Shown: positions 4,176 to 32,260 of the stretch, piece after piece | Numbering within the stretch: the first letter of the stretch is position 1 | Layout: each line of letters begins with the position of its first letter | Assembly (NCBI GenBank): GCA_016183775.1 | Contig: JACPDY010000036.1 | Location: 1 to 51,240 of the forward strand | Direction: 5' to 3' | Source of the DNA: Bacteroidota bacterium | Lineage (GTDB): Bacteria > Bacteroidota > Bacteroidia > JABDFU01 | Length of the DNA: 51,240 nucleotides | The notes under the pieces: model-generated | What the model saw: only the letters and a program-made list of their open reading frames with translations | Database searches by the model: none | What the model was told of the DNA's origin: nothing | Made by a program: the position numbers and the translations under genes

Positions 4176-4194
4176 CCCTCTCCGAAGGAGAGGG
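4176..4194. repeat. Short hairpin of the CCCTCTCC type
   Basis: CCCTCTCC at 4176-4183 pairs exactly with GGAGAGGG at 4187-4194 around a 3-base loop, directly after the DUF2461 gene. A related CTCTCTCC/GGAGAGAG hairpin occurs inside the small insertion near 32.1 kb, so this is a word shared by repeats of this genome. Confidence 0.6.
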
Positions 4195-30718: not shown

Positions 30719-31120
30719 GTGGCATCCTTGTTTTCTAAAATAGTAAAAGGCGAGATTCCATGCTATAAAGTAGCTGAAACAAATGATTATTTGGCCTTTC
30801 TGGACATTTTCCCTCTTAAACAAGGCCATACCCTTGTAATTCCTAAAAAGGAAACCGATTATATTTTTGATATTGATGATCAGCAATTAGCCGGACTGCA
30901 CGTGTTTTCAAAACAAGTGGCACGCGCAATTGAAAAAGTTGTTCCCTGTAAAAGGATAGGTGTCGCGGTTATCGGACTGGAAGTACCACATGCTCACATT
31001 CACCTGGTACCTATGAATGAAATGAGCGACATCAATTTTGAGCGACCCAAACTCAAATTGCCACCAAACGAAATGGAAAGGCTGGCACAAGCCATACAAC
31101 AGGCTTTTAAGGCGCTTTAA
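30719..31120 (+). CDS. HIT family protein
   Basis: The protein has 133 residues and seems to start with GTG at 30719, giving MASLFSKIVKGEIPCYKVAE, the standard family start. The HIT histidine triad is present as PHAHIHLVPM near residue 96. GHTLVIPKKE lies near 39 and IGVAVIGLEVPHAH in the centre. These enzymes hydrolyse or transfer nucleotides from substrates such as AMP-lysine, Ap4A or ADP-sugars; the exact substrate is unknown. Full length. Confidence 0.9.
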   Translation: MASLFSKIVKGEIPCYKVAETNDYLAFLDIFPLKQGHTLVIPKKETDYIFDIDDQQLAGLHVFSKQVARAIEKVVPCKRIGVAVIGLEVPHAHIHLVPMNEMSDINFERPKLKLPPNEMERLAQAIQQAFKAL

Positions 31121-31129
31121 CTAACTCAT

Positions 31130-31350
31130 TATGGACTGAAAGTCCATAAGTTGTGGTAAAGAAAGAATAAAACTCTTTCCACAATACTAAATAAAAATGC
31201 TCAGTGTTTCTCTGTGTCACCTGTGTGCCTGCACACCGAAGTGTTTTGGCACACAGGTGTGAACTTTGTGTAACAAAAAATTACACAGAGAAAAAGGAGT
31301 TTCACAGAGTAGCAGGGTTTCAACTAACGAATGAGGGCAATGAAAATTAT
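31130..31350. repeat. Duplicated leader region, copy 1 (before redoxin gene)
   Basis: Shares with 31937-32260 an ordered set of words: CTGAAAGTCCATA, a CTCTGTGT-rich hairpin around CACACAGGTGTGAA, GTGTAACAAAAAA, TTACACAGAGAAAA and TTTCAACTAACGAATGAG, the last running into the start codon. This copy lacks the 96-base insert present in copy 2. Confidence 0.75.
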
Positions 31351-31921: not shown

Positions 31922-31936
31922 AAAATAAACTAAACC

Positions 31937-32260
31937 ACCATGTGCTGAAAGTCCATAGTTAATGGTAAAGGAAGGATGAAATTCTGATTCTCTGTGTCTC
32001 CTCTGTGCCTGCGCACAGAAGTATTTTGTCACACAGGTGTGAAACTCTGTGTAACAAAAAAATTATACCAAATATAAATTAATCCGTAACTTCTCTCTCC
32101 TTTGGAGAGAGACAAAGAGTAAGGCCAAAAAACAAAGACTAATTTATATTTATAATTGGTATTACACAGAGAAAAGAGAGTAGCCACAGAGAGAAGAATT
32201 TTTTTAGAAACTGAAAGTGCAGATTTCAACTAACGAATGAGACCAATGAATAAGTATTTG
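31937..32260. repeat. Duplicated leader region, copy 2 (before cytochrome/PHM gene)
   Basis: This is the second copy of the leader seen at 31130-31350, here interrupted by a small insertion at 32066-32161. The similarity runs through TTTCAACTAACGAATGAG into the start of the downstream coding sequence. This 315-base gap holds no other gene. Confidence 0.75.
32063..32164. mobile_element. About 96-bp MITE-like insertion
   Basis: TACCAA at 32066 and TTGGTA ending at 32161 are the tips of imperfect inverted ends (TACCAAATATAAATTA against TAATTTATATTTATAATTGGTA). The centre has a CTCTCTCC/GGAGAGAG hairpin. Copy 1 of the leader is an empty site: there AAAAAATTACACAG is continuous, whereas here TTA is present on both sides of the insert, giving a 2-3-base target duplication. 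Confidence 0.8.

Follow-up and report, generated by a model that had tools for sequence, protein, structure and literature searches.

MITEs with IS630-type ends are already known, and the 96-bp element described here is itself routine. RUP of Streptococcus pneumoniae is thought to be moved by IS630-Spn1 and occurs in 108 copies at TA targets (PMC2229807). The IS630-Tc1-mariner group usually duplicates TA (PMC8533490); among its members, the fungal Fot elements of the pogo group have a 3-bp TAA duplication (PMC7386202). Here we consider a window of 51,240 nucleotides (contig JACPDY010000036.1, positions 1 to 51,240, forward strand) from a Bacteroidota bacterium (assembly GCA_016183775.1). The genome of this bacterium (G000; 4.54 Mb, 164 contigs) was compared with a draw of 395 genomes of the class; G002 belongs to the same genus and G219 to a different family. 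A plasmid search found nothing.

Like RUP, the 96-bp MITE is about 100 bp long and non-coding, has ends like those of a resident IS630-type IS and carries TA at its termini. It differs in having few copies and a 3-bp TWA duplication, against the 108 copies of RUP at TA targets. The parent IS resembles the IS630 family in its predicted DDE_3 transposase in two ORFs, its inverted ends, its length of about 1.16 kb and its AT-rich target, whereas it duplicates a 3-bp TWA instead of TA. With Fot it has in common membership of the IS630-Tc1-mariner group and a 3-bp duplication; Fot, however, is eukaryotic, uses TAA only and has a different transposase, whereas the parent IS uses both TAA and TTA. 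It is very probable that this MITE with IS630-like ends was inserted by a resident IS630-like transposase into a TTA of an IS200/IS605-type repeat, with a 3-bp duplication.

The interrupted repeat and its empty sites

The features of the locus are as follows.

31119..31346, + strand: copy 1 of the putative IS200/IS605-type non-autonomous repeat, with about 60 bp deleted in its 3' part; borders approximate
31281..31283, + strand: empty target site TTA in copy 1
31928..32250, + strand: copy 2 of the putative IS200/IS605-type repeat, interrupted by the MITE; borders approximate
32063..32065, + strand: left copy of the TTA target duplication; seen in the sequence itself, the empty sites having one TTA
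32066..32161, + strand: 96-bp MITE with IS630-like ends; borders set by comparison with paralogous empty sites; further copies in G000, G002 and G219
32066..32085, + strand: left inverted end TACCAAATATAAATTAATCC, short form
32093..32111, no strand: central palindrome CTCTCTCCTTTGGAGAGAG, related to a dispersed palindromic repeat
32137..32161, - strand: right inverted end TACCAATTATAAATATAAATTAGTC, long form; matches IS termini in G000
32162..32164, + strand: right copy of the TTA target duplication; seen in the sequence itself, the empty sites having one TTA

The insert in the window reads AAAAAAATTA / TACCAA...TTGGTA (96 bp) / TTACACAGAG. The first-pass annotation had noted these inverted ends in copy 2 and the continuity of copy 1, and both the borders and the empty site can indeed be read directly. 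When the MITE and one TTA are taken out, AAAATTACACAGAG is restored, the same word as in copy 1; the flanks joined with one TTA give ...AACAAAAAAATTACACAGAG, and copy 1 reads ...AACAAAAAATTACACAGAG. The empty site that the annotation had described as lying in the same window is present there, but it is one of 16 paralogous empty sites (window copy 1 counted) and not the only one. The word AAAATTACACAGAG is exact in 14 of the 16 uninterrupted copies; one further copy (L124) is one base off and the other (L141) two bases off.

The two stretches at 31130-31350 (uninterrupted) and 31937-32260 (interrupted), previously described as duplicated leaders, are duplicated, but they are copies of a dispersed repeat of about 280 bp and not gene leaders. 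In G000 this repeat is present at least a dozen times, and in G002 several times (loci L121, L123, L125, L127, L129, L131, L133, L135, L119, L122, L124 and L128). It starts with AACTAAACCACTATGGACTGAAAGTCCATAGG and ends with GCACTGAAAGTGCATAGTTTCAACTAACGAATGAGACCAATGAA, with small hairpins CTATGGACTGAAAGTCCATAG and TTGCACTGAAAGTGCA near its ends and no terminal inverted repeats. Further, in a locus of another genome (L201:119-714, G373) the left 67 and right 60 nt of the repeat surround a 145-aa Y1 TnpA gene (NF033573, 142 bits; PF01797, 141 bits). Because the same ends surround a TnpA gene there, the repeat is best explained as a non-autonomous element of the IS200/IS605 type. It is like IS200/IS605-derived non-autonomous elements in having subterminal hairpins at both ends, no inverted termini and ends in common with a Y1 TnpA element, and differs from them in its length of about 280 bp and its long palindromic interior. 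An autonomous element with these ends was not found in the window's genome. Alignment of the repeat copies gave no obvious target duplication or fixed left-flank word, and the exact borders are approximate.

On this assignment, the 96-bp MITE would be nested in another mobile element, and its presence in one repeat copy gives the polarity: the MITE entered an existing repeat.

The window copies of the repeat reach the start codon of the next ORF, at 31331 (a thioredoxin-like protein) and at 32237 (a weak copper monooxygenase C-terminal match). In several copies the end of the repeat coincides with a start codon or lies close to one (in the window, MRPMN... or MRAMK...). Although the repeat folds very well (z -9.6), its interpretation as a structured RNA was rejected: RNAalifold on 14 copies gave no supporting covariation (term +1.32, one double change), and an Rfam search of the repeat gave no match at the gathering score. 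In addition, a palindrome-bearing stretch of about 35 bp, TGTGCCTGCACACCGAAGTGTTTTGGCACACAGG, located between TGTG words, is present or absent by repeat copy (L119, L131, L124, L133 and L128 compared with L121, L123, L125, L127 and window 31220-31262) and is found away from the repeat too (L146); it may represent a further small mobile palindrome.

The MITE, its copies and the parent IS

The 96-bp insert is a genuine MITE. It is short and non-coding, the sole ORF over it being a 66-aa antisense frame that extends past it, and it combines terminal inverted repeats with a target duplication, a precise empty site, repeated copies and ends common to an IS. The arms at 32070-32084 and 32137-32151 are 93% complementary over 15 bp, and the single-strand fold of the 96-mer beats 200/200 shuffles (z -3.8). 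The right end exceeds the left by 6 bases (TTATAA), and such a length difference is also found between copies. Since the G002 copies are long-form on the left too and the second G000 copy is short-form on the right, this asymmetry, judging from the copies compared, reflects a minor change in length, and the element is otherwise symmetric.

The first-pass annotation would have been refuted by an insert unique in its genome, and this one is not unique. A second copy in G000 (C87, about 2499-2611) is damaged at its left end and has additional bases in its central hairpin, G002 has two copies and G219 has two related ones among the draw of 395 genomes. The interior type CTCTCCTTTGGAGAG...GTGAGGTCAAAAAA...GACTAATT is common to both families, and the MITE is therefore not a one-off. 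It is low-copy, with two copies in G000. Present activity is unproven, the copies being diverged and the full IS not assembled in G000.

Several side observations concern these copies and their interior. The C87 copy (L002:1444-1556) carries 24 additional bases in its central-palindrome loop. Read outward, its right end includes TATATTTG ahead of an ORF starting MLDFATLKRNLKKD, where a contribution to a promoter is possible. Matches to CTCTCCTTTGGAGAG with up to one mismatch number 18 in G000 and 13 in G002 (reversed control 0). Both genomes have dispersed copies of the palindrome CTCTCCTTTGGAGAG with roughly GTGAGG after it (L159, L162, L164, L165, L175 and others; window 4178-4192). In several places it lies in frame inside long ORFs, for example one of 935 aa in L159, like the Rickettsia palindromic elements that reside inside protein genes.

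Over its last 22-28 bp the MITE matches the ends of an IS that occurs in many copies in G000. The termini that match the right end number 25 (ten 3' ends and fifteen 5' ends), and 23 of them are no more than about 275 bp from a contig end, where the termini of a multicopy IS that collapsed in assembly would be expected. No full-length copy of the parent IS is assembled in G000, and the transposase was therefore judged from homologues. Complete relatives with the same kind of ends occur in other families (L107, 1161 bp; L114, 1162 bp), and their second ORFs match DDE_3 (PF13358) at 64.5 and 61.6 bits respectively (cut-off 28.6), that is, the homologues have the DDE_3-type transposase of the IS630 family. 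The first ORFs have weak winged-helix matches. The NCBIfam IS630 transposase model (NF033545) matches both ORFs partially, each below the whole-protein cut-off of 100. L102, L107 and L114 all have an A7 run at one and the same position of the ORF junction; it opens a -1 frame with DDE motifs, and the -1 joined protein would have the motifs (Q/E)DE(S/T)RFG, LDNGAFHKAK and PELNPAE. The transposase is thus probably split over two ORFs that would be joined by a -1 frameshift.

The relation to a full IS with a TA or TTA target that the annotation had anticipated is found in this multicopy IS with matching ends, with complete relatives L107 and L114 and the target TWA. An assignment of the IS ends to two IS families was rejected, as the elements in L102, L107 and L114 have both types of end, one 3' and the other 5', on a single kind of IS. 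Beside an IS end in L011 there is an IS5-like coding stretch, which was discounted as a remnant of something unrelated. The DDE_3 matches in G000 at C56, C60, C68 and C79 come from another IS630-type element, whose ends differ. This second element lies at contig ends and has ends like TAGCGGTTTGGTATTA (L094, L095, L096 and L097, in C79, C56, C60 and C68).

Target duplication and alternative histories

Under a classical IS630 interpretation, the duplicated target would be the terminal TA of TACC/GGTA, and the flanking TTA would be a coincidence. TA is usual in the IS630-Tc1-mariner group (PMC8533490) and both MITE ends begin with TA, but the extra TA is absent from the empty sites: AAATTATATTACAC, the empty site expected if the terminal TA were the target, is found in 0 of the 16 uninterrupted copies. 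Because of this absence, the choice between 'TTA or TA' left by the first-pass annotation is settled as TTA; the duplication it saw is real, and the 2-base version is not borne out. Also, TWA lies next to all 25 IS termini in G000 (15 TAA, 10 TTA), with the fourth base unbiased and a background TWA frequency in the window of 0.048 per position. Where both flanks are readable they repeat directly (window TTA/TTA, L072 TAA/TAA, L191 TAA/TAA, L107 TAA/TAA, L114 TTA/TTA) and not inverted as parts of the ends would; the exception is one G219 copy, L188, with unequal flanks TGA/TTA. We regard the terminal TA as a very unlikely target, and the target duplication is 3 bp (TWA). The parent IS, with a 3-bp TWA duplicated on insertion instead of TA, is therefore filed as an IS630-like variant.

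Loss in place of gain, whereby copy 1 and the other uninterrupted copies would have lost the MITE by precise excision and copy 2 would have gained nothing, deserves hardly any credence. DDE elements can excise, though rarely precisely; this history, however, needs many independent precise losses in two genomes, which is implausible on parsimony, and the MITE is absent from all other repeat copies read. A further proposal is that the MITE also influences gene expression at this locus, serving the downstream gene as a promoter or structured leader. The ORF start at 32237 is about 75 bp downstream of the MITE, which folds well. The Bacteroidetes -7 box is TAnnTTTG, and the short-form end, read outward, contains TATATTTG, which resembles it. 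However, the short-form end in the window copy points away from the downstream gene, and MITE copies lie in unrelated places; such a role seems improbable.

Proposed history and significance

Insertion of the MITE by the resident IS630-like transposase, the history we prefer, may have proceeded as follows. The IS transposase would be produced via a -1 frameshift joining a DNA-binding half to a DDE half. It most likely recognised the TACCAATTATAAATA...TAGTC ends and moved the MITE in trans; the target would have been a TTA word in a copy of the IS200/IS605-type non-autonomous repeat that was already in place. The cut would have been staggered by 3 nt, and its repair would then have duplicated the TTA.

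No bacterial precedent for an IS630 with a TWA, TNA or 3-bp duplication was found in a literature search (ISfinder and most subscription papers lay outside it), and the absence of one is unproven. It is a serious though tentative possibility that an IS630-like lineage across several families of one class shifted its target from TA to a 3-bp TWA, paralleling the TAA of fungal Fot, and that its MITEs carry an embedded dispersed palindrome kept between families.

For annotation, the locus is a caution: what looks like a duplicated pair of regulatory leaders may turn out to be a mobile repeat present twice. As an element the MITE is ordinary, and the point of interest is the TWA duplication in an IS630-like lineage. 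The many paralogous empty sites fix this duplication without guesswork at 3 bp, in a group usually defined by TA, and the case is relevant to changes of insertion-site geometry in the IS630-Tc1-mariner superfamily.
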